Of a stretch of DNA of 64,000 nucleotides, positions 599 through 26,778 are shown in pieces; the first letter of the stretch is position 1; each line of letters starts with the position of its first letter. This DNA comes from Candidatus Latescibacterota bacterium (lineage in GTDB: Bacteria > Latescibacterota > UBA2968). The stretch lies in the NCBI GenBank assembly GCA_022824945.1, contig JAJDYX010000050.1, positions 1 to 64,000 of the forward strand, written 5' to 3'. The translations under genes were made by a program, and so were the position numbers. The notes beneath the pieces were generated by a model. It was not told the DNA's origin. It was given only the letters and a program-made list of their open reading frames with translations, and did not search any database.

Positions 599-1999
599 TT
601 GTGCTTTTCACAATTTTCTCTTGCGGGGAATCCTTTGGCTAACGGTCAACTCTTACACCTGCTAACCGCCCGCGCCGAGTCTAAAAATCCCCTTCGCGTG
701 GGCCTCATCGGCGCTGGAAAGTTCGGCACTATGTTCCTGGCTCAAGCCCGTCGCGTTGCGGGGCTGCACGTCCTGGGTGTGGCCGATCTATCCATGCACC
801 GGGCGCGTGAAGCCCTCACGCGTGCTGAGTGGCCGCCCGAACAATTTGCCGCAACCCACTTCGATCACGCCCTCAAAACCGGCGCCACCCATCTTACCGA
901 TGACAGCGATGCCCTCATCCGGGCGGACGGTCTGGATGTTCTGGTCGAAGCCACCGGCAATCCTCTCGCAGGTATCCACCACGCCCTTCAAGCTATCGAA
1001 CATGGGTGCCACCTGGTCATGGTCAATGTCGAAGCAGATGTCCTGGTCGGTCCCATCCTGGCCCAACGTGCAGCATCCGCTGGCCTCGTGTACACCCTCG
1101 CCTATGGCGACCAACCGGCTTTGATCTGTGAACTGGTTGAATGGGCTCAGACCAACGGTTTCGACATTGTTTGTGCTGGCAAGGGCACCAAATACCGGCC
1201 CGCGTACCACACATCCACACCTGATACTGTCTGGGAGCACTACGGTTTGGATGCTGAAACCGCTGCAAAAGGCGGTCTGAACCCCCGTATGTTCAACTCC
1301 TTTTTGGACGGTACAAAATCCGCCATTGAAATGGCCGCTGTCTCAAATGCCACCGGTCTGAATCCCCAGCCCGAAGGCCTGAAATTCCCACCCTGCAGCA
1401 TCGACCAGCTACCCGATATTTGTCGGCCTCATAGCGACGGGGGGCAACTTTCCCACAAAGGAACCGTCGAAGTCGTCTCCAGCCTGCAACCAGACGGAAC
1501 TCCTGTAGATCGGGATCTGCGCTGGGGTGTTTACGTCACGATTGAAGCCCCCGGCGACTACATCCGCCGCTGCTTCTCCGAATACGGCCTTCCCACTGAT
1601 TCCACTGGACGTTACACGGCCATCTACCGCCCCTATCACCTGGTTGGCATGGAACTCACCACCAGCGTTTTACGCGCTGGCTTGCGCGGCGAAGCCAGCG
1701 GTGCGCCCGTTGTTTTTAATGCAGACGTTGTCGCCACTGCAAAACGCGATCTCTCCCAGGGAGAAATCCTGGACGGCGAAGGCGGCTACCGTGTGTACGG
1801 CAAACTTATACCGGCTGATCAAGCTCGTGCATCCAACACCTTGCCCATCGGACTGGCTCACGATCTCAAGCTAAAACACAAAATCGCCGCGGGACAACCC
1901 ATACACCAATCCGACGTCGAATTGGACGAAAACAACGCCATTCTCCGACTCCGCCGGGAGATGGTACAACGCTTTACAACGACAAAAAACCCCCGATAG
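599..1999 (+). CDS. SAF-domain homoserine dehydrogenase-like oxidoreductase (COG4091 type)
   Basis: A Rossmann NAD(P)-binding domain opens with VGLIGAGKFG at about residues 34-43 and is followed by VLVEATGNP, typical of homoserine-dehydrogenase-like oxidoreductases. The C-terminal ~100 residues (ATAKRDLSQGEILDGEG... to the end) resemble a SAF domain. This architecture matches the predicted homoserine dehydrogenases with C-terminal SAF (COG4091), found in sugar-acid and polyol catabolic clusters; the exact substrate cannot be read from sequence. The TTG at 599 abuts the previous stop. A second TTG at 635 has GGGGAA six bases upstream and is an equally good start. The stop codon lies inside the stem of the terminator that serves the convergent gene. 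Confidence 0.8.
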   Translation: MCFSQFSLAGNPLANGQLLHLLTARAESKNPLRVGLIGAGKFGTMFLAQARRVAGLHVLGVADLSMHRAREALTRAEWPPEQFAATHFDHALKTGATHLTDDSDALIRADGLDVLVEATGNPLAGIHHALQAIEHGCHLVMVNVEADVLVGPILAQRAASAGLVYTLAYGDQPALICELVEWAQTNGFDIVCAGKGTKYRPAYHTSTPDTVWEHYGLDAETAAKGGLNPRMFNSFLDGTKSAIEMAAVSNATGLNPQPEGLKFPPCSIDQLPDICRPHSDGGQLSHKGTVEVVSSLQPDGTPVDRDLRWGVYVTIEAPGDYIRRCFSEYGLPTDSTGRYTAIYRPYHLVGMELTTSVLRAGLRGEASGAPVVFNADVVATAKRDLSQGEILDGEGGYRVYGKLIPADQARASNTLPIGLAHDLKLKHKIAAGQPIHQSDVELDENNAILRLRREMVQRFTTTKNPR

Positions 2000-2018
2000 T
2001 GTAAAGCTATCGGGGGGG
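1987..2018 (-). terminator. Rho-independent terminator of the 2-10 kb minus-strand operon
   Basis: A 10-bp perfect stem (CCCCCGATAG / CTATCGGGGG, arms 1990-1999 and 2007-2016) with a 7-nt loop. On the minus strand it is followed by a T-run (complement of the A-run at 1984-1989). The plus strand has no T-run after the stem, so it mainly serves the DapA-family gene. Its left arm overlaps the last codons of the convergent plus-strand gene. Confidence 0.8.
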
Positions 2019-2036
2019 TTGGGGATGCGTTTCTGC

Positions 2037-2936
2037 CTACGACGCCTCTGTGCGGAATAGAGGGCGAAGTTTTGCGAGTATGGCGTCGAGTTCTCGGTGG
2101 TCGTCGTCGTCCAATTGTGTACTGCCGGGCGCGCGCATGCCGCTCGTTTTGAAGATGCCTCGGCGAATGAGCACTTCTTTGACCAGACGGAGACCGAGGA
2201 TTTGGATCAGGTTGGTGAGTGGAAGGAGTTGATCGAAAAGATCGCGTGCTCTGTCTTCATCGCCTGATTGAAAGGCCTCCCAGATGTCAACGTGAATATC
2301 GACAACCGGGGCGCCGGGCATAAAGCCACTGGCGCCTCGTCGCATTTCTGAGATCATCCAGCGGCACCATGCGCCACCAAAAACGCCCTGACAGTGATCT
2401 CCTGCTTCGGCGACAATGGCGCTGATGTGATGTGCGCTGGGGTTGGCTTCTTCTTTGACGTAGATGAGGTGCTCAACTTCGGTGAGGAGGCGAACGAGTG
2501 CGGGAGGTTGCATGCCAGCACCTGCGTTCTGGATGAAAATGGGCAATTGTCCCGCGGTGGAAATGGCCTCAAAGTAGCGGAGGTTTTCGTCCGGGCCACC
2601 GCTGCCCATATAGGGGGGCATAGCGATGACAGCATCGGCACCTGCACGTCCGGCATGGGCGGCGTGTTCGGTGGCTGTGGAGATATTGGTGCCGGCCACA
2701 CCGACGATGACGGGTGTGCGTTTGTCGGTTTTTTTGACGACGATTTCGACGAGGGTTTGTCGCTCGCGGTCGGAGAGATATTGAAATTCACCTCCGAGCA
2801 CGGGAAAGACCATGCCGCCTGCACCAGCGGCGATGCAGAAGTCGATTTGCCGCTCCATGCTTTCGATGTCGAAGTCTCCGGATTCGGCAACGGGCGTTTG
2901 TAATACGGGCAAGATACCGCGGATGGGATTGTTCAA
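2037..2936 (-). CDS. Dihydrodipicolinate synthase (DapA)-family aldolase/lyase
   Basis: 299-residue (beta/alpha)8 barrel of the DapA/NanA superfamily of class I aldolases. The Schiff-base lysine is Lys161 in the strand LIYVKEE. Two features argue against a genuine dihydrodipicolinate synthase: the GTTGE loop reads LGGE (residues 47-50), and the conserved Tyr of the YNVP strand is replaced by Gln-Asn (QNAG, 136-139). A catabolic aldolase or hydratase acting on a 2-keto-acid sugar derivative is more likely; substrate unknown. The TTG start is backed by AGGAG seven bases upstream. It is the last gene of the operon, 30 bp after the TonB receptor, and ends at the terminator at 1990-2016. Confidence 0.85.
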   Translation of the reverse strand: MNNPIRGILPVLQTPVAESGDFDIESMERQIDFCIAAGAGGMVFPVLGGEFQYLSDRERQTLVEIVVKKTDKRTPVIVGVAGTNISTATEHAAHAGRAGADAVIAMPPYMGSGGPDENLRYFEAISTAGQLPIFIQNAGAGMQPPALVRLLTEVEHLIYVKEEANPSAHHISAIVAEAGDHCQGVFGGAWCRWMISEMRRGASGFMPGAPVVDIHVDIWEAFQSGDEDRARDLFDQLLPLTNLIQILGLRLVKEVLIRRGIFKTSGMRAPGSTQLDDDDHRELDAILAKLRPLFRTEAS

Positions 2937-2966
2937 GGTGATCTCCTGTGTTAGAACTGCTGACGG

Positions 2967-5636
2967 CTAATAATCGTACGATAGCGAAATATTCCAGCGG
3001 CGGGATAGGCCGAGGAATACGCGAGCGCTTGCTGCGTCGTGATCGTTGCCGTCATCTGCATCGGACACATAGCGTTCGTCGAGCAAATTGAAGACGTGCA
3101 GTTGGAGTTTTACTTTGCCATTTCCAAATGTATTGCCGGGCAGGGTGTAGCCCGCATGCAGATTTATCAGGTTGTAATTTGGGAGTTGCCAGGATTGTTT
3201 TCGGTCGTTGGCATCTGTTCGATTGGCGGGGTCAAATTTGGCGTAGTGATCCATAAATCGCCGCAGACTCAGCGAGGTGTAGAGGCCGCGTGTGGGAAAT
3301 ATTGTGCCGCTCAGCGCAAGGGTTTTTTGCGCCGAGTCACCCACTTTTAGCCCTTTGGCATAGACTTGAAAGTTGCCGATAACAGATGGGTCTTCTTCAG
3401 GGGAAAATGTGACATTGGCATCGTTGAGCCATTCCCAGTTGCCCAGCGATAACATGCCGCGCAATTCCAGCATGGAATGGGGACGGGCTTTCAGGTCGAA
3501 CTCTATACCTGTATGTCGCGCGTCAATGCCGTTTAGCAAAAATCGAAAGCTCTGATCGAGCTTTGCACTGTAAATGCTCTTGGGCCACGAGCGGTCTATC
3601 CATCTGGTGTAATAGAAATTTGTGTTTGCTGTCACTACGCCGCGTTTGAAATAACCGGCACCCAACTCAAAGGCGGCGACTTTTTCATTGAATGTGGGGT
3701 CGTAGAGGCTGTTGTCGTAATGATAAACGGAGTCGAATTTGGGGGCTGTTGAAAGCCAGCCCACGTTGGCATACACATTGATTGCGGGGGTTGCATTGTA
3801 GTTGCCGCCCACTTTTGCGGTGTAGCCTTTGAAGTTTTCCCAATCTGTCTGATCCCAGTCGCCATTGACCTTTGCGCGGAAATAGTCGATGCGTTTATAA
3901 CCTGTTATAGACGCAGATGTGCTCAGAAATGCCGTAAAGTCGTTAAACCGGCCTTCGAGTTGTGCAAAACCACCACCCCAGCGCGTAAGGCCGTCGTTGT
4001 GGTAGGAGACTTTGTCACCGAGTCGCTTGACGGAGGTCGTGGCGTTTCTGTCCCAGGGGAAGACGTAATAATCGGCGCCGAGCAGATTGCGTACTTCGCG
4101 CCAATGCTGCCCTCTGTAATAGCGCAAGTCTATGCCAAAGGCCAGCGTGTAGATTTCGCTCAAACGGTGTTCGGCCGTGCTCAAATAACCATACCAGAAG
4201 TGTTGGTTGACCGAGTTTCGGATGACGGTTCTTGCCGCAATTTCATTGGCACCTACTTCGCCTGCGCCTACCAGGTCGGGATGGGATTCCGACGCTGTTT
4301 GGGTGTTCAATTCATCGGCAACGCGTTGCCAGTTGATGCTGCCATCGGGTAGCGAGCGCGGGTTGGTACCCAAACGCCCTGTGCCGCCGCCTTTGCCGCG
4401 CGAAAAATAAAATATGTTGGATAGGATGAACTGCTCGTTGGGTGTCCAGTACCAGTTCAAATTGATCTGGGGTTTGTGGTAAAAATTCTCGCGTTCCATG
4501 ATGATTTTACTGTCGCGCGCGTCGTGTACCTGGCCGTTGTAGTACTCCTGATAGGATGAGAATGGGGAGCGTCCCCAGTTGGGGTTGTAATCGATACCGT
4601 AGGTTCTCGCATCCGCAACATCAATCCCCAGGGAGCGGGCGTAATCGGCATCAAAGGTTGCGATGGATTGCTTGTAGAGGCGATGCCCGTGTCGTTGTGG
4701 CGCGCCTACGACAAACAGGTCAATTTTGTGTGTCTCAGATGCGAAATAGCTCAGTGCTCCAAAATAGGACCAGGCCGATGTCCACGTCTGATCGGGCAAG
4801 CCATCGCCAATTTTGCGGGTGAGACCCAGGGTGAAAGCGGTTTTGCCGTTTATCAAACCCGATGAAAAATTGACTGTGGTTTTGTAAAAGGCGTTGTTTC
4901 CCGCCTCCTGTTTGATTTTGAATCCGCGCTGTTGACGGGCGATGTCGGTGACAATGTTCATGGTGCCACCTACTGAGGCGATTGCCAGATTTGAGGCACC
5001 CAATCCGCGCTGGACCTGGATTGATGACGTGACATCGCTCAGGCCATCCCAGTTGGACCAATAGACCCAGCCGTTTTCCATATCGTTGACCGGTACGCCA
5101 TTGATCATGACGGCGACGTTGCGCTGGTCAAATCCCCTCACATTGATGCGAGAATCGCCAGGACCTCCCCCTTGCTCGGTTGCATAAACGCCCGGTGTAT
5201 CATTCAAAATCATCGGGAGATCGCGCGAGCCGAGTTTGCGCTCCATATCGGCTTTTGGAACGTCTGAGAAGGCAACGGGGGTTTCGCGCAATTTGGCGCG
5301 GTCGGCAACGATGGTGACTTCTTTGCCTCGAAATGCCTCGGGCATGAGTTCTACAATTAACTCGGTGGCATCCGCTTTTACAATGATAGAACTGCGATAC
5401 TCTTTGTATCCTACAAAACTTATGACGAGTGTATAGTTGCCTTCGCCGACTCTGGTGATCTCAAATTGTCCATCGAGATCTGTAGCGGTTCCTCGCCCGA
5501 TACCTTCTAAATATACGTTTGCGCTCGGCAGAGCTTCACCGGTTTCGGCATCGCGTACTTTGCCTTTTAACTCGGCGGCAGACAGGGTGGCGTGGGTCAG
5601 GAACAACATGGATAACACCATAACAATTTGTTTCAT
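2967..5636 (-). CDS. TonB-dependent receptor with N-terminal carboxypeptidase-regulatory-like domain
   Basis: 889-residue outer-membrane active transporter. A signal peptide ends about residue 20 (THATLSAA). A carboxypeptidase-regulatory-like domain follows at about 22-100 (LKGKVRDAETGEALPSANV). The plug domain covers about 110-230 (DLPMILNDTPGVY, INVRGFDQRNVAVMINGVP), and a 22-strand-type barrel runs to the terminal Tyr. This resembles SusC-like receptors, but no SusD partner is present. The open frame extends upstream into the creatininase gene. I chose the ATG at 5634-5636 because it begins a signal peptide and has GGAGGT four bases upstream. Ligand unknown; neighbours suggest the product of the beta-helix enzyme. 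Confidence 0.93.
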   Translation of the reverse strand: MKQIVMVLSMLFLTHATLSAAELKGKVRDAETGEALPSANVYLEGIGRGTATDLDGQFEITRVGEGNYTLVISFVGYKEYRSSIIVKADATELIVELMPEAFRGKEVTIVADRAKLRETPVAFSDVPKADMERKLGSRDLPMILNDTPGVYATEQGGGPGDSRINVRGFDQRNVAVMINGVPVNDMENGWVYWSNWDGLSDVTSSIQVQRGLGASNLAIASVGGTMNIVTDIARQQRGFKIKQEAGNNAFYKTTVNFSSGLINGKTAFTLGLTRKIGDGLPDQTWTSAWSYFGALSYFASETHKIDLFVVGAPQRHGHRLYKQSIATFDADYARSLGIDVADARTYGIDYNPNWGRSPFSSYQEYYNGQVHDARDSKIIMERENFYHKPQINLNWYWTPNEQFILSNIFYFSRGKGGGTGRLGTNPRSLPDGSINWQRVADELNTQTASESHPDLVGAGEVGANEIAARTVIRNSVNQHFWYGYLSTAEHRLSEIYTLAFGIDLRYYRGQHWREVRNLLGADYYVFPWDRNATTSVKRLGDKVSYHNDGLTRWGGGFAQLEGRFNDFTAFLSTSASITGYKRIDYFRAKVNGDWDQTDWENFKGYTAKVGGNYNATPAINVYANVGWLSTAPKFDSVYHYDNSLYDPTFNEKVAAFELGAGYFKRGVVTANTNFYYTRWIDRSWPKSIYSAKLDQSFRFLLNGIDARHTGIEFDLKARPHSMLELRGMLSLGNWEWLNDANVTFSPEEDPSVIGNFQVYAKGLKVGDSAQKTLALSGTIFPTRGLYTSLSLRRFMDHYAKFDPANRTDANDRKQSWQLPNYNLINLHAGYTLPGNTFGNGKVKLQLHVFNLLDERYVSDADDGNDHDAASARVFLGLSRRWNISLSYDY

Positions 5637-5685
5637 AGGGACCTCCATGATAGTGGAAATAGGACACGTATTGGATAATATATAC

Positions 5686-6585
5686 TTAAAATTCGCGATC
5701 TGGTACTTTCCAGTTGGCGTACCAGACAGAGTTTTCAGGGAGCGTGGCGTCGTCTGACCACGCCGTTTGCATGGTGCGGAAGTTGGGCAATTCGGGGCGG
5801 ATAACGGTTTCCCATATGTGTTCGACCTGGTCAAAGGTGCGAAGTTTTTGTGTGGGTCTTTCCGATTCATACGCGGCGAGCAATTCCCTAACTTTGTTGC
5901 CGAGCCACTCGGTTTCGTCATTGACCATGCGCTCGCCAATTTTGCGGTTGGATTCACGGACATTTTTGCCCATGGCAAAGTGTGGTCCGGGTTCGCTTTC
6001 GGGTGGTAAACGGGAGATATCGACACAGTCGGGTTCAATGGCCCACAGGAGAGATGTTTCAACTTTGCCAGCGTGGTCACCGCCGCTGTTGTTGTCATTG
6101 TCAAAGCCGGGTTCGTTGGCTTCAAAGTCTGGCAGGCTATACAGGCGTGTGCCCACATGGGGTTGGATGAGTTTGCACAGGGTTTTCAGGTCTTGCCAGT
6201 TGGGGCCGTAGTGCCCAGTGAGGAAGATGGCCGCGTGAAAGCCGAGGGTGTCGGCCTGGCGGATGTGATAGCAGATGTTTTTGAAGTGTTGCCAGGGCGG
6301 CATACAGGTTAGCCAGGAGCGTTCGGATTGGCCGACCGAGCGTTCTGACCAGAGGGCATAACCTCCAATTTCGTGGATATGCCAGTAGTCGGGCGGGGCG
6401 ACAATGCCTCCGTGTTTGTGCGCGGTGCGAACGGCAATGCCGTGGGCTTTGAGGGCGTCGAGTCCTACAGCATTTTGTGGGCCGTGTGGTTCGCACAGGC
6501 CATAGGAAAAATAGACGACTGGACAGGCTTTGAATGCGGCTTCGAGTTCATCGGGGAACATGCGCTCCCAGCGTACGTCTCTCAC
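5686..6585 (-). CDS. Creatininase-family amidohydrolase
   Basis: 299 residues of the creatininase fold (metal-dependent amide or formamide hydrolases, including creatinine amidohydrolase, FAPy deformylase and MftE). Conserved metal ligands appear in order: Glu32 and His34 in CEPHG, Asp43 in GLDALKAHG, a His in LTGHYG, and the late acidic site in GGDHAGKVETSLL. The GTG start has AAGGAG nine bases upstream. No signal peptide, so probably cytoplasmic. Third gene of the five-gene operon. A role in hydrolysing an amide of the imported compound is inferred, not shown. Confidence 0.88.
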   Translation of the reverse strand: MRDVRWERMFPDELEAAFKACPVVYFSYGLCEPHGPQNAVGLDALKAHGIAVRTAHKHGGIVAPPDYWHIHEIGGYALWSERSVGQSERSWLTCMPPWQHFKNICYHIRQADTLGFHAAIFLTGHYGPNWQDLKTLCKLIQPHVGTRLYSLPDFEANEPGFDNDNNSGGDHAGKVETSLLWAIEPDCVDISRLPPESEPGPHFAMGKNVRESNRKIGERMVNDETEWLGNKVRELLAAYESERPTQKLRTFDQVEHIWETVIRPELPNFRTMQTAWSDDATLPENSVWYANWKVPDREF

Positions 6586-6615
6586 GGTGGAGTACTCCTT
6601 TTGAGAAGTTTATTG

Positions 6616-8979
6616 CTACGATTCCAGATCGTGGTGCAGTTTTAGTTGGGCGATAAATTCTGGTGTGAGTGTGGTTCCCGAGTTTTTGAGATGGTTTATG
6701 ACATCGTTGCCGAGTGTTGTGTTGAGATGGTAGTATTGTACAGATTCGTTGATTTTGATGAAGCCCAGGCGGTTCATCAGGTCCGGATTTATGGTGCCGT
6801 TGACGATGGGCGCGTGAAGGGTGCAGTTGGTGAAGCGCGTGCCCAACGTGTTTTGCAGAATGTAAAATTGTTCTGGTACTGTTTTCACGTCGGGTTGGAG
6901 ACGGCACTCGGTAAATACGAGTTCGCCCCGCAAATTTGGTGCGGTTATGGTGTTCAGGCTGCACCGTTCAAAAGTCGCACTGGCAATGCAGTTGCCCAGG
7001 TATGCGCTGATATTTCCACAGTCGGTAAATCGCATTTTGGGATAGAGAGCGAGCGCATCGGCATAGTCAATCGCCGATTCTCCACCGATCAGGATGTGTA
7101 CCTGTTCGTCATCGTCGGCAATTTCCTGAGTGAATTTTTCGAGTTGGACATTGTCGCAGATGAGGGTGCTGTTGGCGTGGAGTTGCGTGCCATCATAGCT
7201 GCCATTGCCGCGCAGGTCGTAGTGGTGTGGGTTGGGTATGCGGATGAGGCGAACGCCCTGTTTTCTGCCTTCGACGGTGATGTTTCGAAATTCAATGCGA
7301 TTGGGGAAGAAGAGGCGGTCATTGTTTTTGGTTTTGGAAAAGGAAACGGTGTCCATGAGCCAGCACGGTGCAGTTGATGCAGGTGCAGCACTGTAATCGA
7401 TGAGCAGGTTTTCGATTGTGACAGTGCGTGCAAAGCCGATGGGATACTGGTAGTCGAAATCGGACGGACGACAGGATAGGACAGAGACGCGGCCATTACT
7501 ACTGGGCATTAACCGGCAGCCGCGGATGCGTATGTGTCCGTCCCATTTGGCGCCATAGTCGCGTCGGAAATTGACAAATTGGTTGCCGTGGCGCGTGGTG
7601 TTTTCGATTACCAATTCACCGCCACCTGTAAGCGCGATGCCTTTGAAGCCAATGGTGCAGTTGCTGATGTAGAGGTTCCAGCAGTGAAAATGCACATCGA
7701 TGCGGTTGAGGCGGCAGTTTTCGACGCGGAAGTTTTTGTTGAGGTTGGTGCCAAAAACGCCCCAGGCGACCCAGCCGCCTTCTGCTGTGATGTTGCGAAA
7801 GGTGCAATTGAGCATCCGCGCACCGCCAATGCCATAGGTGCCCGCACCGAGTACTCTGTCTTTTTCTTCGCGATTTTTCTCCCAGGGCATTGCGCGGATA
7901 TTTTCCAGTGTGACGTCGTAAACACCGCTGAATACGTAAAAGCCGCGACGGGGGTGCATGGAGATATCACTTTTCCCTTTTTCCAGACCCATCCATTGTT
8001 CGCGGATGATGGTGCGGCTGCGTTTTATGGAGATGCCGTGGTGGTGATACCGCCAGGAACTACCGCTTCCGCTGTCACCAGAAAAGTAAAATCCGCCGCC
8101 TTCGACAATGAGGTAATTGTCGTTGCAGGGTATGGCGGTGATGTCGGTGAAGTTTTTGAATTCCCAGGCTATATCGCCAATGATGCGGCCCTCTTCTTCG
8201 ACATAGAACAGTTCTTCGCGCCCCCATCCCGCCTTTGAATAATTGCCTGCCCGGATACCTATGCGATCATCATCATCTTCGGCGATGATAAGATGGCCTG
8301 CATATTGCGCCAGTTCTGGTATGAGTTGCACGCCGGGTTTTAGATTTTCCAATAAGGCTGTTTTAATGGGTTCGTCTCGCGTGAGTTTTTTCGGGGGGTG
8401 ATCGTTGAGAATTTCAAAGCGCGGCTCTCTTCGGCTGTTGTACTGTTCATCGATGTGAAAAGTGGTTTGCCCCCAGGAGACGTTGGTTTTGATGGATATG
8501 TCATTGGTTTGCGTGATCCAATATTCGCCGCTTAAATTCACAATTGGGACTTTGTGTGCATTGGCATATTTATGCGCCAGGGTTATTTGAATGCCGTCGT
8601 CGTTTTCACCATCGCCCATCGCCCCAAACATTTTGTAGTTCACGGCTTCGCTTTCGTGCAAGATGGCGACTAATCCATTGTCCAATGCGATGATGTCGGC
8701 ATCGTTTGGCTGGATATTTGCATCTGTTTTTTCGATGTGATACAGGGCTGCGCCACCGTCGCCGGGAATGTAAAAACCCGCGGTTTCTGCCCAGTCGCCT
8801 TCGCGGATTGCGGACGCGGATTTCATAGCTTGAACGGTGGCGTAGCGCGTTATGGTTGCACTGTTTGTTGTGTTCACGGCGATCTCCTGAGACAATGCGT
8901 GCTGTGTGAGAACAATACCACTGATACCAATGCCAGCGATTGCTTTGCGTCTGGATAATTTATGCGGTTGTTTGGACAT
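6616..8979 (-). CDS. Tat-exported right-handed beta-helix protein (pectate-lyase-like fold)
   Basis: 787 residues. The N-terminus has a twin-arginine signal (SRRKAIAGIGISG) cut near ALSQE. Residues ~65-170 resemble the start of pectate-lyase-3-like domains (FGAMGDGENDDGIQITLA), followed by long runs of beta-helix rungs (repeated N.T...NI, VENC, RIRGCRL, VTIENL, ITVEG). This is the fold of polysaccharide lyases and hydrolases; catalytic residues cannot be assigned by eye. An upstream GTG at 9021 overlaps the previous gene and would bury the signal, so I chose ATG 8979, although its SD is weak. It probably degrades a polyanionic glycan in the periplasm. Confidence 0.85.
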   Translation of the reverse strand: MSKQPHKLSRRKAIAGIGISGIVLTQHALSQEIAVNTTNSATITRYATVQAMKSASAIREGDWAETAGFYIPGDGGAALYHIEKTDANIQPNDADIIALDNGLVAILHESEAVNYKMFGAMGDGENDDGIQITLAHKYANAHKVPIVNLSGEYWITQTNDISIKTNVSWGQTTFHIDEQYNSRREPRFEILNDHPPKKLTRDEPIKTALLENLKPGVQLIPELAQYAGHLIIAEDDDDRIGIRAGNYSKAGWGREELFYVEEEGRIIGDIAWEFKNFTDITAIPCNDNYLIVEGGGFYFSGDSGSGSSWRYHHHGISIKRSRTIIREQWMGLEKGKSDISMHPRRGFYVFSGVYDVTLENIRAMPWEKNREEKDRVLGAGTYGIGGARMLNCTFRNITAEGGWVAWGVFGTNLNKNFRVENCRLNRIDVHFHCWNLYISNCTIGFKGIALTGGGELVIENTTRHGNQFVNFRRDYGAKWDGHIRIRGCRLMPSSNGRVSVLSCRPSDFDYQYPIGFARTVTIENLLIDYSAAPASTAPCWLMDTVSFSKTKNNDRLFFPNRIEFRNITVEGRKQGVRLIRIPNPHHYDLRGNGSYDGTQLHANSTLICDNVQLEKFTQEIADDDEQVHILIGGESAIDYADALALYPKMRFTDCGNISAYLGNCIASATFERCSLNTITAPNLRGELVFTECRLQPDVKTVPEQFYILQNTLGTRFTNCTLHAPIVNGTINPDLMNRLGFIKINESVQYYHLNTTLGNDVINHLKNSGTTLTPEFIAQLKLHHDLES

Positions 8980-8995
8980 AGTTTTTGCCAAATTT

Positions 8996-10042
8996 TTATT
9001 GTACTTTTCCGCGCCCGGCAACTTTCCATACGTGTTCTACATTGCCATTTCGCACGGCATAGACTTTGTCGTGTAGGTTGGTGGTCATGCCCTGATGCAG
9101 GGGAATGACGGAGATGCGGTCGCCTACGGTGAAGGTGTGGTTGCATTCTGAGATATCGACGTGGCCGTGTTCGACGGACATGCCGTAGATTTTGGCATTG
9201 GGGTGTTCAACGATGTACCCATAAGGAGTGGGGGCATAACTGGTGAATGTTTTTTGTCCGCCATCGATGATGACGCGGTCGGGTGTGGGGGTGCTGACAA
9301 CGGTGACTATCATGCGTTCGGCACAGGTGATGGGGTTGGGCGGGTTGTGTTCGCGGTTGATGCGGCGCAGGCCTTCAAAGACGTAGGAACCAATGCGGGT
9401 TTCGGTACAGCCAATGGCTTTGGAGACTTCGGCAGTGCCCGTGCCACCCCCGCTGATGGTGTTGAGCGCGATGCCCGCGTTTTGAAGCAGGTTGCGCGTT
9501 TGGTCGATGAAGGCTTTGGCGCGTTCGTGACTGGGATAGGTCATGATGCCCTGGAACTGAAGGCCGGGCATGGTTGTAACCTTTTGTGCGAGTTCAAGCG
9601 CGGCTTTGGGCGATTGTACGCCGCAGCGATTGCCTCCGGTGTCGCATTCGATGAGGATGTTGATGGCGGCGTGGTTTTTTTTTGCACCATCGGACAGTCC
9701 GCGTGCGGTGATTTCCGAATCGACGGCAACGGTCATGGTTGCGCGTTTGCACAGTTCGGCGAGGCGTTTGACTTTGATGGGTCCGACGATATTGTAGGGG
9801 ATGAGGATGTCGGGAATGCCGGCTTCAACCATGGCTTCGGCTTCGCCCACTTTTTGGCAGACAATGCCAATGGCTCCCGCAGCGAGTTGCATTTTGGCGA
9901 TTTCGGGGATTTTGTGCGTTTTGGTGTGTACGCGTAGCGGAATGTTGAATTTGTCGCATGCTTCTTGCGTTTCTCGAATATTTTTTTCGAGGATATCGAG
10001 GTCGATGGTGAGCGCAGGTGTGTCGAGGTCGTGTATGGTCAT
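8996..10042 (-). CDS. D-threonine aldolase / D-serine dehydratase-like PLP enzyme
   Basis: 348 residues with the alanine-racemase-like TIM-barrel N-terminus and the C-terminal beta domain of D-threonine aldolases (LDTPALTIDLDILEKN at the start, PLP lysine in RVHTKTHK, phosphate-binding SGGGTGT). A metal pair is visible late in HQGMTTNLHD, as in D-threonine aldolase and D-serine dehydratase. It should cleave or dehydrate a D-beta-hydroxy-amino acid. The ATG start has only a weak SD. First gene of the five-gene operon, with a candidate promoter at 10093-10121. Confidence 0.87.
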   Translation of the reverse strand: MTIHDLDTPALTIDLDILEKNIRETQEACDKFNIPLRVHTKTHKIPEIAKMQLAAGAIGIVCQKVGEAEAMVEAGIPDILIPYNIVGPIKVKRLAELCKRATMTVAVDSEITARGLSDGAKKNHAAINILIECDTGGNRCGVQSPKAALELAQKVTTMPGLQFQGIMTYPSHERAKAFIDQTRNLLQNAGIALNTISGGGTGTAEVSKAIGCTETRIGSYVFEGLRRINREHNPPNPITCAERMIVTVVSTPTPDRVIIDGGQKTFTSYAPTPYGYIVEHPNAKIYGMSVEHGHVDISECNHTFTVGDRISVIPLHQGMTTNLHDKVYAVRNGNVEHVWKVAGRGKVQ

Positions 10043-10092
10043 GGCAATATCTGTTCTTAAAAGGTGAAAATCGGTGTTGTGCGGGGATAGGC

Positions 10093-10121
10093 AATGTACG
10101 TTGGTCAGGGAAGGGCGTCAA
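10093..10121 (-). promoter_or_regulatory. Candidate sigma-70 promoter of the minus-strand operon
   Basis: Reading the minus strand: TTGACG, exactly 17 bases, TACATT. Transcription would begin near 10086, leaving a ~44-nt leader before the ATG at 10042. It is the best -35/-10 pair in this divergent gap. On the plus strand a perfect TTGACA at 10158-10163 lacks a good -10 at the right distance. Confidence 0.45.
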
Positions 10122-10247: not shown

Positions 10248-11333
10248 ATGGCAGATAAACTGAAGGTGGGTATTGTCGGAGTGGGAGGTATTGCGCGGAC
10301 GCATATTCCGGGTTGGCAGGCTTCGGCACACGCCGAATTGGTGGCTGGAAGCGATATTAGTGAAGATGTGTTGAAGGATTGGGGTGAACAATACGGGATC
10401 AAAAAACTGTATGTAAATCCGGAAGATTTGTTTGCCGATCCAGAGATAGATATTGTGGATGTGTGTACACCAAATAATTATCATGCGCCTCTATCTATTG
10501 GCGCGCTGGATGCGGGTAAACACGTGATTTGTGAAAAGCCTCTGGCACCGAGTCCCCAATTGGTGAAAGATATGATTGCCGCGCGCGACCGATCGGGCAA
10601 GTTGTTGATGTGCGCGCAATCGTCGCGGTTTGCGGGGTCATCTCTGGCGATGAAGCGGGAATTGGATACCGGGGTTTTGGGAAATGTGTATCACGCGCGA
10701 TGCTGGATGTTGCGAAAGTCGGGTGTGCCCGCGCGGCCGGGTTTTATTATGAAAAAGCACAGTGGTGGCGGGCCGTGTATCGATATTGGCGTTCATGTGT
10801 TGGATTTGACGCTGTGGTTGATGGGCAATCCAAATCCCGTAGCTGTAACGGGGGTGGCGAAGGCGGAGTTGGCACATCAGGAGGGCGCTTTCAGTACGAT
10901 GGGGCGCAGTGGTGGTGCGATTCCCGAAGAATTTGATGTGGAGGATTTTGCAGCGGCTTTTGTGCGGTTTGAAAATGGGGCTTCGCTTATTCTGGAGACG
11001 AGTTGGATGTTGCATCAAGGTCCCCCGTCAGAACGACAGATATGGCTTTACGGCACGAAGGGTGGCGCACATTTGCCCAGTAGTGAGATTTATTATTCGG
11101 ATTATAAGACGCAGCAACATCACAAATACGCATTGCAAGATACGGGCGATATCGCCAAAGCGCACGCACTGGAATGTATGACGTTTGCGGAGGCGATTAC
11201 AGAGGGTAAACCGTCACCAGTACCGGCTGAGCAGTCGCTTCAGGTGATGGCGATTTTGGATGGGATTTATCGCAGTGAAGAGGAAGGGCGTGAAGTGGAT
11301 ATAGCGCGAGATGCAAAAATAAATGCGAGTTAA
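10248..11333 (+). CDS. Gfo/Idh/MocA family oxidoreductase
   Basis: 361 residues. N-terminal Rossmann domain with GVGGIA at 11-16 and the family EKP motif at 96-98 (CEKPLAPS), then the C-terminal alpha/beta substrate domain with GGGPCIDIGVHVLDL. Members oxidise or epimerise sugars, inositols and related polyols with NAD(P). Substrate not predictable. The ATG follows GAGGAGG at good spacing. Its stop overlaps by four bases the stop of the convergent phosphatase gene. Divergent from the five-gene operon, so the two may share control. Confidence 0.93.
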   Translation: MADKLKVGIVGVGGIARTHIPGWQASAHAELVAGSDISEDVLKDWGEQYGIKKLYVNPEDLFADPEIDIVDVCTPNNYHAPLSIGALDAGKHVICEKPLAPSPQLVKDMIAARDRSGKLLMCAQSSRFAGSSLAMKRELDTGVLGNVYHARCWMLRKSGVPARPGFIMKKHSGGGPCIDIGVHVLDLTLWLMGNPNPVAVTGVAKAELAHQEGAFSTMGRSGGAIPEEFDVEDFAAAFVRFENGASLILETSWMLHQGPPSERQIWLYGTKGGAHLPSSEIYYSDYKTQQHHKYALQDTGDIAKAHALECMTFAEAITEGKPSPVPAEQSLQVMAILDGIYRSEEEGREVDIARDAKINAS

Positions 11334-12643
11334 TAAACTTTGTCGTCTTTGTTTTTCTTTTTCAGAGTATTTTTTGATCGGCGTTCGGGAGATTGAGGGG
11401 CGCGATCGATGAGTTTGTTGGGTTTGCCCATCTGTTTTACCAGATCAAAGGCATCGTAGAGTTCACCCACTGTGGTCATTGCGCGGTAGTGCAAGGTGTC
11501 GCCTGAGACAGTGATGATTTGATAAAGCTGTGTGTTTTCACCACCGCGCGTCATCCAGCGATCTTTTCTGAGTTTGAGTTGTTTGGGTCCGCTGACCGAT
11601 ACGACGTACACAGTGCCTTTGGTTGAGTCGCGCACGGTTACGCCGCTGCCGATATTGTGTCCTCTGGCATACGTATGGTTGTGTCCTTGAAGTACCAGAT
11701 CGACGGCGTATTTGTCAAAAAGAGGTTTCCAGGCTTCGCGCTGATCCTTATTTGCGAGGCCCTGGGTTGCGGCATAGATGGGATGGTGGAATGTGACAAA
11801 GGTCCATTTATTGGGGTTGTTTTCGAGTATTTTTTCCAACCAGGGGACCTGTTCTTTGTGGCGTTCATTGGAATTGAGTGAGATGATGCGTGCGCCCTGA
11901 TAGTCTGTGTAATAGGTTGTTTCCGCAAAGCCTTCGGGACCATTTTCAGGTAGGGTAAATTGCGGGTGCCATAGAACAGATGGACGGAGCGTGTCCCCAT
12001 CTTTATAGTATTCGTTATTTCCCGGCGTAGGAATGCTGGGGATTTTTGCATGGATCCAACTGCCAGACTCAAACCATTCATGCCAGTCGCTATCTTTGTT
12101 GGGATAATCGACGAGGTCGCCAGCGTGGATGATAAAGTCGGCATGGGGCGCGTCGAGTACGGCGGTTCGGATGGTGCGTGCCCACAGGGACAGCAGATTG
12201 TTTTGGGCATCGCCAAGGTAGATGAAGGTGAATTCATCTGGTTCGGCAGAGGCTGTGCGAAATTGATACCAGGAACTCCAGATTTTGTCGCTGCCCACGC
12301 GGTAGGCGTAGAGGGTGTTGGGTTTGAGACCCTTAAATGTGACCGAATGGAAGTGGGCGGTCTTTCTATTGCGTTTCCATTTTTCAGTGCGCGCGTTTTC
12401 GCTCCTGGCCCATGTGGTAAAATTGGCTGAGGCATTGGCTTCTGCGATCTGGCCTTCAGCTTGTGTGATGCTCGTATCGGTGCGCCAGGTGACGGATGCC
12501 GTGGTGGCGGGATCGCCCGACCAGGTGAGTATAATACGGTCGGGGATTTTTTTAGGAGCGGGATCTACGGCAGCACGGTGATACTCGTTTGTATAAGCCG
12601 GGGCTGTGAATAGGAGCAGAAGGATGAGGCAAATCGGGCGCAT
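11330..12643 (-). CDS. Purple-acid-phosphatase-like metallophosphoesterase, copy A (altered GNHE motif)
   Basis: 437 residues with a secretory signal (CLILLLLFTAPAYTN), an N-terminal Ig/fibronectin-like domain typical of purple acid phosphatases, then a calcineurin-type metallophosphoesterase domain: GDAQ, HAGDLVD, GNNE, FHHP, GHNHTYARG. The usual GNHE/D motif reads GNNE, so the catalytic His is Asn here. The neighbouring copy B is about 80% identical by eye and keeps GNHE. Start ATG 12643 begins the signal peptide; its SD (GGGGAA) is weaker than in copy B (AGGAGA). Probably periplasmic or extracellular; activity may be reduced or changed. Confidence 0.88.
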   Translation of the reverse strand: MRPICLILLLLFTAPAYTNEYHRAAVDPAPKKIPDRIILTWSGDPATTASVTWRTDTSITQAEGQIAEANASANFTTWARSENARTEKWKRNRKTAHFHSVTFKGLKPNTLYAYRVGSDKIWSSWYQFRTASAEPDEFTFIYLGDAQNNLLSLWARTIRTAVLDAPHADFIIHAGDLVDYPNKDSDWHEWFESGSWIHAKIPSIPTPGNNEYYKDGDTLRPSVLWHPQFTLPENGPEGFAETTYYTDYQGARIISLNSNERHKEQVPWLEKILENNPNKWTFVTFHHPIYAATQGLANKDQREAWKPLFDKYAVDLVLQGHNHTYARGHNIGSGVTVRDSTKGTVYVVSVSGPKQLKLRKDRWMTRGGENTQLYQIITVSGDTLHYRAMTTVGELYDAFDLVKQMGKPNKLIDRAPQSPERRSKNTLKKKNKDDKVY

Positions 12644-12675
12644 GGGGTTCCCCGGGTGAAAATTTTTAAAGACCA

Positions 12676-13989
12676 CTAAAAAACTTTATCGTCTTTGTCT
12701 TTCTTTTCAAGGGTATTTTCCCATCGGCGTTCGGGAGATTGTGGGGCGCGATCGATGAGTTTGTTGGGTTTGCCCATCTGTTTTACCAGATCAAAAGCAT
12801 CGTAGAGTTCACCCACAACGGTCATTGCGCGGTAGTGCAAGGTGTCACCTGAGACAGTGATGATCTGATAAAGCTGTGTGTTTTCTCCACCGCGGGTCAT
12901 CCAGCGGTCTTTTCTGAGTTTGTATTGTTTGGGACCGCTGACCGATACGACGTACACAGTGCCTTTGGTTGAGTCGCGCACGGTTACGCCGCTGCCGATA
13001 TTGTTCCCTCTGGCATACGTATGGTCGTGACCCTGGAGCACCAGATCGACGGCGTATTTGTCAAAGACGGGTTTCCACGCTTCGCGCAGGTCTTTGTTGT
13101 CGCGGCCATCGGATGCTGAATAGACGGGATGGTGGAATGTGACAAAAGTCCATTTATTGGGGTTGTTTTTGAGCACTTGTTCCAACCAGGGGACCTGTTC
13201 TTCACGACCTTCATTGGAATTGAGTGAGATGATGCGCGCACCCTGATAGTCTGTGTAATAGATGGTTTCCTCAAAGCCTTTGGGTCCATTTTCGGGCAGG
13301 GTGAAATGCGGTCGCCATAGGACAGATAGACGGCGAGTGACCCCATTTTTATAGTATTCGTGATTCCCCGGTGTAGAAATGCTGGGGATTTTTGCATGGA
13401 TCCAGTCGCCAGATTCAAACCATTCCTGCCATTCACTATCCCTGTTGGCACGATTGACGAGGTCGCCAGCGTGGATGATAAAGTCGGCATGGGGCGCGTC
13501 GAGCACGGCGGTTCGAATGGTGCGTGCCCACAGAGCGAGCAAATTGTTTTGTGCATCGCCAAAGTAGATGAAGGTGAATTCATCCGGTTCGGTAGAGGCT
13601 GTGCGAAATTGATACCAGGAACTCCAGATGTCGCCACTGCCCACGCGGTAGGCATAGAGGGTGTTGGGTTTGAGGCTCTTAAAGGTGACCGAATGGAAAT
13701 GGGCAGTATTCCCATTGTGTTCCCATTTTTCAGTGCGTGCGTTTTCGCTCCTGGCCCATGTGGTAAAGTTGGCCGAGGCATCGGCTTCTGCGATCTGGCC
13801 TTCAGCTTGTGCGATGCTCGTGTCGGTGCGCCAGGTGATCGATGCTGTGGTGGTGGGGTCTCCCGACCAGTTGAGTACTATGCGGTCGGGGATTTTTGAG
13901 GGAATGGAATCTACGGCAGCACGGTAATGCTCGTTTGCATAAGCCGGGGCTGTGAATAGGAGCAGAAGGATGAGACAGATCGAGCGCAT
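12676..13989 (-). CDS. Purple-acid-phosphatase-like metallophosphoesterase, copy B
   Basis: 437 residues, the intact member of a tandem pair. Signal peptide, Ig-like N-terminal domain (GDPTTTASITWRTD...), then the metallophosphoesterase motifs GDAQ, HAGDLVN, GNHEYY, FHHP and GHDHTYARG. The C-terminus (MGKPNKLIDRAPQSPERR) is shared with copy A. Secreted phosphomonoesterase or diesterase activity is expected from the family. The ATG at 13989 has AGGAG at good spacing. Copy A follows after a 32-bp gap on the same strand, so both may come from one transcript. Confidence 0.9.
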   Translation of the reverse strand: MRSICLILLLLFTAPAYANEHYRAAVDSIPSKIPDRIVLNWSGDPTTTASITWRTDTSIAQAEGQIAEADASANFTTWARSENARTEKWEHNGNTAHFHSVTFKSLKPNTLYAYRVGSGDIWSSWYQFRTASTEPDEFTFIYFGDAQNNLLALWARTIRTAVLDAPHADFIIHAGDLVNRANRDSEWQEWFESGDWIHAKIPSISTPGNHEYYKNGVTRRLSVLWRPHFTLPENGPKGFEETIYYTDYQGARIISLNSNEGREEQVPWLEQVLKNNPNKWTFVTFHHPVYSASDGRDNKDLREAWKPVFDKYAVDLVLQGHDHTYARGNNIGSGVTVRDSTKGTVYVVSVSGPKQYKLRKDRWMTRGGENTQLYQIITVSGDTLHYRAMTVVGELYDAFDLVKQMGKPNKLIDRAPQSPERRWENTLEKKDKDDKVF

Positions 13990-14058
13990 GGGGTTCTCCT
14001 GGTGAGAATGTGGGTTCAATGTTTTACTTACAAAGATATAATTCGTTCCAAATTAAAT

Positions 14059-24269: not shown

Positions 24270-25448
24270 ATGCAGATACCTTCCTCCTATCAGCCCGGGT
24301 ACAAAGAGGCCCTTCTGACCGATCCCGATCTCGCCAAAACATACATCCAGCACACGCTCATTGGCGATGCCGATGCCGATGCCTTAATCGACGCGATATC
24401 CGACATTGACCATGAGGAACAGGGCGAATTCATCAAGGCAGGGATGGATCTGGATGAGGAAAAACTGCGTGATGCGCCGCGGGAAGTGGGGGAGTTTTTT
24501 GAGAAGATCGGGACTCCGCCCGCGTGGTTCGACCCACAGTCCGTATATCCAGGATGCAGTGGCTTCCACGCGTACTCAGATCTGTTTCTCACCGCATTTG
24601 TCACCGATATCATCATACGGGGTTTTACAACGCTGATCAGCCAGTCGTTTTTTATTACGGGAAGGCTGACCGATTGGGGTGTGCGGCGGTTGAGACAGAA
24701 TATTCGGCATCTCTTAGAGATTATGTTGCCGGGGGGTCTGGAGCGGCAGGGCGAGGGCTGGAAATTATCTGTCCGTCTCAGGCTGGTGCATGCGCAAATC
24801 AGGCGACATCTTCTCGCTTCTGAAGATTGGGATCATGAGGCCCACGGTATGCCGATTAGCACTGCTCACGTCGCGCTTGCATCCTGTAATTTTTCCGGAA
24901 TGATGCTGGATTCAGCCGCGAGGATTGGCGCGCGCCTGAACGATGAAGAGCGCGATAGTTTTATGCAAATCTGGCGCTATACCGCTCATCTGATGGGTGT
25001 GCCCGATGTTCTACTATTCCGCAACGAAAACGAAGCCAAAGAAATATTCCGCGTGGGTTATATCTGCGAGCCACCCCCCGGTCTGGAAGCTATCGCTATG
25101 ACAAACTCGGTGATTGCCTCTGCCCCTTTAGTGATTGGGATTGATGACAGGGACGAGCGAGATGACCTGTCTAACTATGGGTACCGCCTTTCCCGGTCGT
25201 TGCTTGGAGACGAACTCGCCGATCAACTCATGTTCCCAGAAAGTCGGACTGCCGGGGCCGGAACGCTGGCATATTTGCGGCTGAGGCGCAGAATTCAGGA
25301 GATTATTGACATTTTTCGGTGGGGGAAGAGACCGAGGCAGCGTGCAAGGAATTTCATAACCTTGCTCCACATATCTATGCTCAAGCCAGATATGATCACT
25401 TACCGCTTGCCCAATCGCCTGCATGCAGATGCGGCGAGTTGGTGGTAA
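24270..25448 (+). CDS. MpaB/DUF2236-family oxygenase (latex-clearing-protein-like), copy 1
   Basis: 392 residues of the MpaB/DUF2236 haem-protein family, which includes rubber oxygenase Lcp and fungal MpaB. Typical segments are visible: GRLTDWGVRRLRQN and WKLSVRLRLVHAQIRRHLL in the helical haem pocket, then IWRYTAHLMGVPD. Members cleave or oxidise C=C bonds of polyisoprenoids or other lipids. No signal peptide. Tandem paralogue directly downstream (roughly 80% identical by eye). I see no strong SD before the ATG. Confidence 0.85.
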   Translation: MQIPSSYQPGYKEALLTDPDLAKTYIQHTLIGDADADALIDAISDIDHEEQGEFIKAGMDLDEEKLRDAPREVGEFFEKIGTPPAWFDPQSVYPGCSGFHAYSDLFLTAFVTDIIIRGFTTLISQSFFITGRLTDWGVRRLRQNIRHLLEIMLPGGLERQGEGWKLSVRLRLVHAQIRRHLLASEDWDHEAHGMPISTAHVALASCNFSGMMLDSAARIGARLNDEERDSFMQIWRYTAHLMGVPDVLLFRNENEAKEIFRVGYICEPPPGLEAIAMTNSVIASAPLVIGIDDRDERDDLSNYGYRLSRSLLGDELADQLMFPESRTAGAGTLAYLRLRRRIQEIIDIFRWGKRPRQRARNFITLLHISMLKPDMITYRLPNRLHADAASWW

Positions 25449-25602: not shown

Positions 25603-26778
25603 TTGCAGATACCTTCTTCATATCAACCCGGGTACGAAGAGGCCCTTCTGACCGATCCCGACCTCGCCAAAACATACATCCAGCACACGCTCATCGGCGA
25701 TCCCGATGCCGATGCTCTGATCAATGGATTAGCCGGTATTGACGAGAAGCAACAGGGCGTATTTATCAGGGCTGGAATGGATCTGGATGAGGAAAAACTG
25801 CGTGATGCGCCGCAGGCAGTACGGGCGTTTTTTGAGAAAATCGGGACTCCGCCCGCGTGGTTTGATCCCGATTCAGTATATCCCGGATGCCGTGGCTTCC
25901 AAGCCTATTCGGATCTGTTTCTCACCTCGTTCGTCGTGGATATTATTGTACAGGGTTTCACGACGCTGATCAGCCAATCGTTTTTCACCACAGGAAGGCT
26001 GACCGATTATGGGGTGCGGCGGCTAAAGCAAAATATACTTCACCTCTTAGAGATTATGTTGCCGGGTGGCCTGGAGCGGCATGGCGAGGGCTGGAAACTG
26101 TCTGTCCGTCTGCGGCTGGTACATGCACAGGTCAGGCGGCATCTTCTCGCTTCTGAGGAGTGGGACCATGAAGCCCACGGCATGCCGATCAGTGCTGCCC
26201 ACATCGCGCTCGCGTCCTGTAATTTCTCCGGGATGCTGTTGCGGTCAGCCACGCGAATTGGCGCACGTCTAAACGATGAAGAACGCGACAGTTTTATGCA
26301 GATATGGCGCTATACCGCTCATCTGATGGGTGTGCCCGATGCACTCATGTTCAGCAATGAGACCGAAGCCTGCGAAATATACCGCGTGGGTTACATCTGC
26401 GAGCCGCCTCCCGGTCTGGAAGCTATTGCTATGGCAAACTCGGTGATTGCCTCGGCTCCTTACGTGATCGGTATTGAAGACGAGAAAGAGCGAGATAATC
26501 TATCTGGTTTTGGGTACCGCCTTTCCCGAACGTTGATTGGAGACGAACTCGCCGACCAACTCATGTTTCCAAAAAGTCGAATATCCAGGACCGGGACACT
26601 GGCATATTTGCGGCTGAGGCGCAGAATCCAGGATATCCTCAATGTCCTGCTATGGTGGAGACCGGGTCATCGTACCCAAAACTTCATGGCCTTGCTCAAC
26701 GTATCTACGCTCGAAGAACATAAAATAAGTTACCGATTGCCCGACAAGCTACACGCAGACGAGTCAAAGCCGTGGTGA
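25603..26778 (+). CDS. MpaB/DUF2236-family oxygenase, copy 2
   Basis: 391 residues, same family and order of motifs as copy 1 (GRLTDYGVRRLKQN, RLRLVHAQVRRHLL, IWRYTAHLMGVPD, VGYICEPPPGLEAIAM). The N-terminal codons align exactly with copy 1, whose ATG is a TTG here (TTG CAG ATA), so the same start is kept with a weaker codon. Divergence is spread across the protein, more in residues 50-75 and at the C-terminus. The RND operon follows 107 bp downstream on the same strand. Confidence 0.85.
   Translation: MQIPSSYQPGYEEALLTDPDLAKTYIQHTLIGDPDADALINGLAGIDEKQQGVFIRAGMDLDEEKLRDAPQAVRAFFEKIGTPPAWFDPDSVYPGCRGFQAYSDLFLTSFVVDIIVQGFTTLISQSFFTTGRLTDYGVRRLKQNILHLLEIMLPGGLERHGEGWKLSVRLRLVHAQVRRHLLASEEWDHEAHGMPISAAHIALASCNFSGMLLRSATRIGARLNDEERDSFMQIWRYTAHLMGVPDALMFSNETEACEIYRVGYICEPPPGLEAIAMANSVIASAPYVIGIEDEKERDNLSGFGYRLSRTLIGDELADQLMFPKSRISRTGTLAYLRLRRRIQDILNVLLWWRPGHRTQNFMALLNVSTLEEHKISYRLPDKLHADESKPW

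Follow-up and report, generated by a model that had tools for sequence, protein, structure and literature searches.

A five-gene cluster with a predicted beta-helix polysaccharide lyase in one genus of Latescibacterota

Phage beta-helix depolymerases, SusC/SusD loci, 2-keto-3-deoxy sugar acid dehydratases and D-threonine aldolases are the closest described systems for comparison with a cluster of five genes in a 64,000-nucleotide stretch of a Candidatus Latescibacterota genome (the window: bases 1-64000 of contig 34 in G000, a genome of 5.49 Mb in 57 contigs). The genes encode, in order, a D-threonine aldolase-like (DTA-like) enzyme, a beta-helix protein, a creatininase-family protein, a TonB-dependent receptor, and a DapA-superfamily enzyme. 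The strongest result is a predicted lyase family, represented by the beta-helix protein. A pathway formed by the five genes together is unproven. The cluster is modular, and no more than one genus was seen to carry all of it.

The best solved match of the beta-helix protein model is the K64-ORF41 depolymerase (8x8m), listed in a review among beta-eliminating lyases, with Tyr528, His574 and Arg628 as its catalytic residues (PMC11652154). The two proteins have in common the right-handed beta-helix and an aligned Tyr/His/Arg set, but are 14-20% identical, and K64-ORF41 is part of a Klebsiella phage virion with a T7-type N-terminal domain, whereas the window protein is chromosomal with an RR signal. 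The SPO1/CampHawk tail fibre (phrog_23059) is closer: the 18 best phage records are 38-40% identical across 70-78% of the protein. It too is a virion protein, of ~1025 aa, unlike the chromosomal gene, and its catalytic His is replaced in two of five copies. SPO1-type fibres are credited with “putative pectin lyase domains” in the accessible text of PMC3868849. WceF of Pantoea stewartii (6tgf) is likewise a bacterial, non-virion, tailspike-fold glycan enzyme, but a hydrolase acting on its host's own exopolysaccharide, according to an excerpt of its description (PMC7949094), and it is a weak structural match (E 4.5e-5).

SusC/SusD loci resemble the window locus in that a glycan enzyme is found next to a TonB receptor whose N-terminus carries a carboxypeptidase-regulatory domain. 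They differ in that no SusD-like protein was found by Pfam among eight scanned proteins of the window, where the gaps within the operon, none above 49 bp, are too short for a SusD gene, and in that the receptor scores 69.8 bits against TIGR04056 (cut-off 368). An earlier note on this DNA had also missed SusD here and thought the locus distinct from classic ones for that reason; the absence stands for the scanned neighbours but is not special, SusD pairing being a Bacteroidota habit. Bacteroidota homologues of the beta-helix protein are indeed found near SusC/SusD. The DTA-like enzyme belongs to the same fold-type-III family as D-threonine aldolase (4v15) and BhcC (6qkb), and keeps their Schiff-base Lys, within HTKTHK; the His-x-Asp (HxD) that serves as a metal site in D-threonine aldolase, present in 4v15, 7dib and 6qkb, is replaced by HQG, and the BhcC model score is far below cut-off. 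The DapA-like protein has as its closest solved match L-2-keto-3-deoxyarabonate (L-KDA) dehydratase (3fkk, 7c0c), at a distant 118 bits; it shares the Schiff-base Lys, the Gln in place of the aldolase Tyr and the Glu at Lys+2 (K161, Q136 and E163), but not Glu199/Glu200. For L-KDA dehydratase a review (PMC9795676) describes Gln143 in place of the aldolase Tyr, a Glu173 that sets these dehydratases apart, and Glu200 acting as a second base.

The beta-helix protein as a predicted lyase

The beta-helix protein has no match in Pfam or NCBIfam. Its AlphaFold model (pLDDT 89.6, pTM 0.87; residues 1-40 below 50) is a right-handed parallel beta-helix, which Foldseek aligns to 8x8m with E 1.3e-19 and TMq 0.58; the best viral structural match is the CampHawk tail fibre (TMq 0.88, rmsd 2.3, 33% identity). 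Its match to the PHROG tail-fibre family has an E-value of 4.6e-130, and tblastn returned 58 phage records, 19 of them Bacillus. The RR motif, SRRKAIAG, was read by eye in the N-terminus.

The three catalytic letters were confirmed in the K64-ORF41 phage gene, and an hhalign comparison (E 1.1e-8) of K64-ORF41 with a 43-sequence alignment, made up of the window protein and 42 of 72 loci found, places them at Y382, H430 and R472. All 72 cellular beta-helix loci keep these residues. So does a second relative in the same genome (G000:C1:27671-28945, L002; 30% identical; residues read from the alignment), a paralogue present in seven of the 11 genomes of the genus and in six genomes of other genera, once with a stop. 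By record titles the cellular family spans at least seven phyla, and a limited literature search found no reported activity for it. That the window protein is a polysaccharide lyase is a good prediction from alignment and model. In fold and in apparent catalytic residues the cellular family agrees with a capsule-cutting phage lyase; it is possibly a new polysaccharide lyase family, and may hint at what SPO1-type tail fibres touch.

The beta-helix protein could instead be a hydrolase or a non-catalytic glycan-binding protein. Tailspike-fold hydrolases such as WceF exist, as the accessible part of PMC7949094 indicates, and two phage relatives lack the catalytic His: the five SPO1-type phages examined all have the Tyr and the Arg, but only three have the His (SPO1L3, phi18 and Goe16; L116, L117, L119), with Arg in its place in CampHawk (L115) and Tyr in Adastra (L118). 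Switches from enzyme to binding protein among close phages are possible. With the Tyr, His and Arg of a beta-eliminating relative retained throughout the cellular loci and in the 30% paralogue, however, a non-lyase role for the window protein is improbable.

A recent phage origin was considered and rejected: a tree, made by a quick method and subject to a long-branch warning, places the window gene with Latescibacterota, Planctomycetota, Lentisphaerota and Armatimonadota rows, while the phages group towards the Bacillota, where their neighbour is a row with a long branch. No phage-type Pfam family was found among eight window proteins scanned, the beta-helix protein included.

The account we favour, and consider somewhat likelier to be right than wrong, is that the cluster is an operon, put together from modules, that serves to scavenge a uronate-containing (acidic) glycan. 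The RR-exported beta-helix enzyme would cut the glycan by beta-elimination via Tyr382, His430 and Arg472; the cutting fold proposed in the earlier note thus stands, as a predicted lyase, although the enzyme may act in the periplasm and not, as proposed there, outside the cell. The receptor would import the oligosaccharides, and the DapA-like enzyme would dehydrate a 2-keto-3-deoxy sugar acid to which the uronate gives rise. The DTA-like and creatininase-family proteins, presumably an older pair, might act on a small amide or amino compound, in a step that is accessory to glycan use or unrelated to it.

Gene order within and outside the genus

By open reading frame (ORF) analysis the window holds five intact, co-directional genes at 2037-10042 on the minus strand, with gaps of 16, 30, 49 and 30 bp in 5' to 3' transcript order. 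Both the arrangement and its spacing had been noted before, and they recur in other assemblies. The features are:

8996-10042, minus strand: DTA-like pyridoxal phosphate enzyme of fold type III, first gene of the cluster
6616-8979, minus strand: beta-helix protein with RR signal, predicted polysaccharide lyase (ATG at 8979)
5686-6585, minus strand: creatininase-family protein (Pfam Creatininase)
2967-5636, minus strand: TonB-dependent receptor with carboxypeptidase-regulatory-like and plug domains (ATG at 5636)
2037-2936, minus strand: DapA-superfamily enzyme (Pfam DHDPS)
10121-10093, minus strand: promoter-like site TTGACG-17-TACATT (motif scan and genus alignment)
2016-1990, minus strand: terminator hairpin, then T-tract (scan and genus alignment)
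10248-11333, plus strand: Gfo/Idh/MocA oxidoreductase, divergent from the operon, possible partner

Start codons were shifted inward for the receptor and the beta-helix protein; a receptor ORF reaching 6158 is a mechanical over-extension. Pfam assigned four of the five families, with E-values of 4e-34 (DHDPS), 1e-19 (Creatininase), 1e-25 and 1e-14 (Ala_racemase_N and D-ser_dehydrat, DTA-like enzyme), and 2e-21 and 3e-15 (CarbopepD_reg_2 and Plug, receptor), the last two bearing out an uptake receptor. The promoter scan proves nothing alone, because it found 15 sites with 10.7 expected; both hexamers are identical in all seven aligned members of the genus (the window and six relatives). The hairpin is kept in four of five aligned members (the window and four relatives) and the T-tract in three; the fifth has a different short inverted repeat followed by T, read by eye. 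The candidate promoter and terminator of the earlier note thus held up in the alignments, and the five genes plausibly form a single transcript. The divergent Gfo/Idh/MocA gene, 94-99% identical beside the operon in the six relatives checked (L003-L008), is a possible partner.

Each of the five proteins was searched against 60 genomes (G000 and 59 relatives), 11 of which constitute the genus. The order DTA-beta-helix-creatininase-receptor-DapA is uninterrupted on one contig in seven of these (G000, G001, G002, G003, G005, G006, G007), or six of ten besides the window genome; one locus, L008, is 92% identical to the window over the beta-helix. G010 has a consistent order interrupted by contig ends, with the creatininase gene stopping 12 bp short of the end of C114 and the receptor gene beginning at base 128 of C19. 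Two genomes carry extra DNA after the creatininase gene, ~1.8 kb in G009 and more than 3 kb in G004, with glycosyltransferase-like genes and antisense frames; the receptor and DapA genes of G004 are on a different contig, cut at its edge. The glycosyltransferase-like genes may have been inserted in these two genomes, or may be older genes lost elsewhere. The last genome, G008, is a single contig with beta-helix, receptor and DapA genes at 4.16, 1.56 and 5.00 Mb, more than 800 kb apart; a whole-genome protein search found no DTA or creatininase orthologue, and the beta-helix gene sits in a signal peptidase-Gfo-PhyH neighbourhood. In every genus genome except G008 the receptor and DapA genes are adjacent, with 30-38 bp between them in these ten. 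Between creatininase and receptor the seven compact genomes have anything from 32 to 178 bp, enough room for a second promoter.

The creatininase of G003 is missing residues 82-275 through an in-frame internal deletion. At L003 12395-12700 this 194-residue loss removes H125 and E176 from an operon that is otherwise intact; it could be real or an assembly artefact. Glycosyltransferase-like genes after creatininase were seen at L113, L006 13308-15110 and L007 5109-8542; one of those in G009 is shortened, and the assignment was confirmed by Pfam for the G009 gene only.

Among the genomes and beta-helix loci searched, the full five were together at no place outside the genus. One genome of another genus, G014, has DTA-beta-helix-creatininase. 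With orthologues taken at 52% identity or more for DTA and 62% or more for creatininase (the G012 DTA copy being a 77% fragment), both are present in 22 genomes. They flank a beta-helix gene in 11 of these (ten genus members and G014), are adjacent without it in seven (G011, G012, G015, G016, G017, G018, G020), and lie on separate contigs in four (G013, G021, G026, G036). The DTA gene carries stops in G011 and G012, and G012 has the beta-helix gene at another place. The Gfo gene of the G008 beta-helix neighbourhood (62-67% identical) is found beside DTA-creatininase in G011, G012, G015, G018 and G020, and its PhyH gene (72% over 105 residues) is found ahead of DTA-beta-helix-creatininase in G014. 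Receptor orthologues of 75-84% identity are found in eight genomes of family f4 (G027, G037, G040, G041, G042, G044, G045, G046); five of these loci (L077-L081) have no adjoining operon gene, although L079 has a 26% identical DapA-family ORF ~5 kb away. DTA orthologues are only 53-59% identical between the genus's family and f4, and the much higher receptor identity suggests that the receptor gene was transferred between families.

Beyond L003-L009, 65 beta-helix loci were examined, including G008's own (L010) and L027, by coordinates G012's. At E <= 1e-5 none has a DTA or creatininase match, one has a weak DapA match and one a weak receptor match; 40 of the 65 are at least 20 kb long, and shorter ones could hide neighbours.

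The genes may, then, share a promoter and not a pathway, with DTA-creatininase, beta-helix and receptor-DapA as independent modules joined in the genus. This patchwork account would fit the seven DTA-creatininase pairs standing without a beta-helix gene, the f4 receptors standing without other operon genes, the different setting of the G008 beta-helix gene, the glycosyltransferase-like genes (some antisense) of G004 and G009, the G003 deletion, and the variable creatininase-receptor gap. The unbroken order in seven of 11 genomes with the promoter-like site kept, and the steady receptor-DapA gap, argue against it, and we regard it as a serious if rather unlikely alternative to glycan scavenging. 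Co-occurrence in relatives had been proposed as a check, and co-location was indeed found within the genus, so these are not genes that never lie together; an integrated five-gene pathway, as first claimed, is nonetheless not borne out, with the full set confined to the genus and G008 scattered and incomplete. The comparison illustrates that what looks like a compact “operon” in a single genome may turn out to be a genus-limited patchwork.

Candidate substrates and the other enzymes

In other phyla, beta-helix homologues are found near genes for sulfatase/BNR_4, GH88, glucuronyl esterase, chondroitinase B (PL6) and GH28, families read from ten hand-picked neighbours. At least one relative of these carbohydrate families or SusD occurs at 16 of the 65 loci (a rough count with no background control, suggestive only), and an ABC-type binding protein relative at 13 (likewise with no background control). 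Because of such carbohydrate genes, an acidic glycan target is likely. The window genome has 152 sulfatase-family matches (170 first-look candidates, 150 scored), extreme for 5.5 Mb, which fits life on sulfated glycans. Lake Latescibacteria are rich in polysaccharide lyases, with sulfatase and GH88 genes, according to the accessible text of PMC4454575.

Several observations weigh against uronate scavenging, besides the replaced phage His, the creatininase-receptor gap and the isolated f4 receptors. GH88, a usual follow-on enzyme of uronate lyases, is all but missing from the genome, with one weak match (28.5 bits, cut-off 26.6); an inner-membrane transporter, a uronate isomerase and a uronate reductase are all lacking among the five genes; Ala and Trp align at Glu199/Glu200 of L-KDA dehydratase in the DapA-like protein; and its Gln/Glu marks occur in 15 of 17 DapA-family rows and are thus not peculiar to this gene. 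By identity, these rows divide into nine orthologues (at least 56%), all with the Gln and the Lys+2 Glu, and eight more distant rows, six with both.

The earlier note had counted two carbon-carbon lyases in the cluster, and both are doubtful. Active-site residues disfavour an aldolase role for the DapA-like protein, which has the dehydratase Gln/Glu. HxD is absent from all 22 DTA orthologues (at least 52% identity), with Gly in the third position in 19 and Glu in three, in which a replacement ligand is therefore possible; three more distant rows of the 25-row alignment read HPC, HPC and YSD. The beta-hydroxyaspartate cycle was rejected on BhcC (227.6 bits for the DTA-like protein, cut-off 690) and BhcD (best in the genome 73.8 bits, cut-off 500), a test covering these two and leaving out BhcA and BhcB. 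The creatininase-family protein scores 71 bits against PF02633 (cut-off 31.3) and has no solved relative by sequence at E <= 0.001. The motif residues E32/H34/D43, H125 and E176, metal ligands in creatininases, are kept in all 19 aligned rows.

The family names suit a nitrogen-containing acidic glycan or an amino-acid-decorated uronate, in which the creatininase would cut an amide and the DTA-like enzyme process the released hydroxy-amino acid; the invariant creatininase residues and the plausibility of the beta-helix protein as a uronate lyase point the same way. Against it are the loss of HxD in every DTA orthologue, the DTA-creatininase pair without the lyase in six genomes and apart from it in G012, and the 65 other beta-helix loci with neither gene. 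We find this quite doubtful: the acidic glycan proposed in the earlier note remains likely, while its nitrogen-containing part came from family names alone. In the literature searched, D-threonine aldolase and creatininase were not found treated together. A more specific version, and the longest shot of those considered, is that the operon degrades amino-acid-decorated uronate polymers such as capsules or exopolysaccharides of co-resident bacteria, the tailspike-like lyase opening the polymer, the creatininase-family enzyme removing an amide-linked amino acid, and the DTA relative, lacking its metal ligand, processing it by new chemistry. If true, this would be a capsule-eating pathway that manages almost without GH88-type unsaturated-uronyl hydrolases.

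Of the structure modelling once proposed, the beta-helix protein gave a confident result, whereas the receptor model was poor (pLDDT 52.9).

A second pairing of beta-helix and DapA-type genes was seen in a Pedobacter-like locus (L036 12359-15662; L028 and L034 similar), where the beta-helix gene is followed by genes for a membrane protein, an NAD-epimerase-family protein and a DHDPS-like protein, the last just below the Pfam cut-off. Elsewhere in the window are two tandem duplications: purple-acid-phosphatase-like metallophosphoesterases at 11330-12676 and 12676-14019 (Pfam on the first copy only), and MPAB/Lcp oxygenase-domain proteins at 24270-25448 and 25603-26778 (PF09995 tested on the first only).

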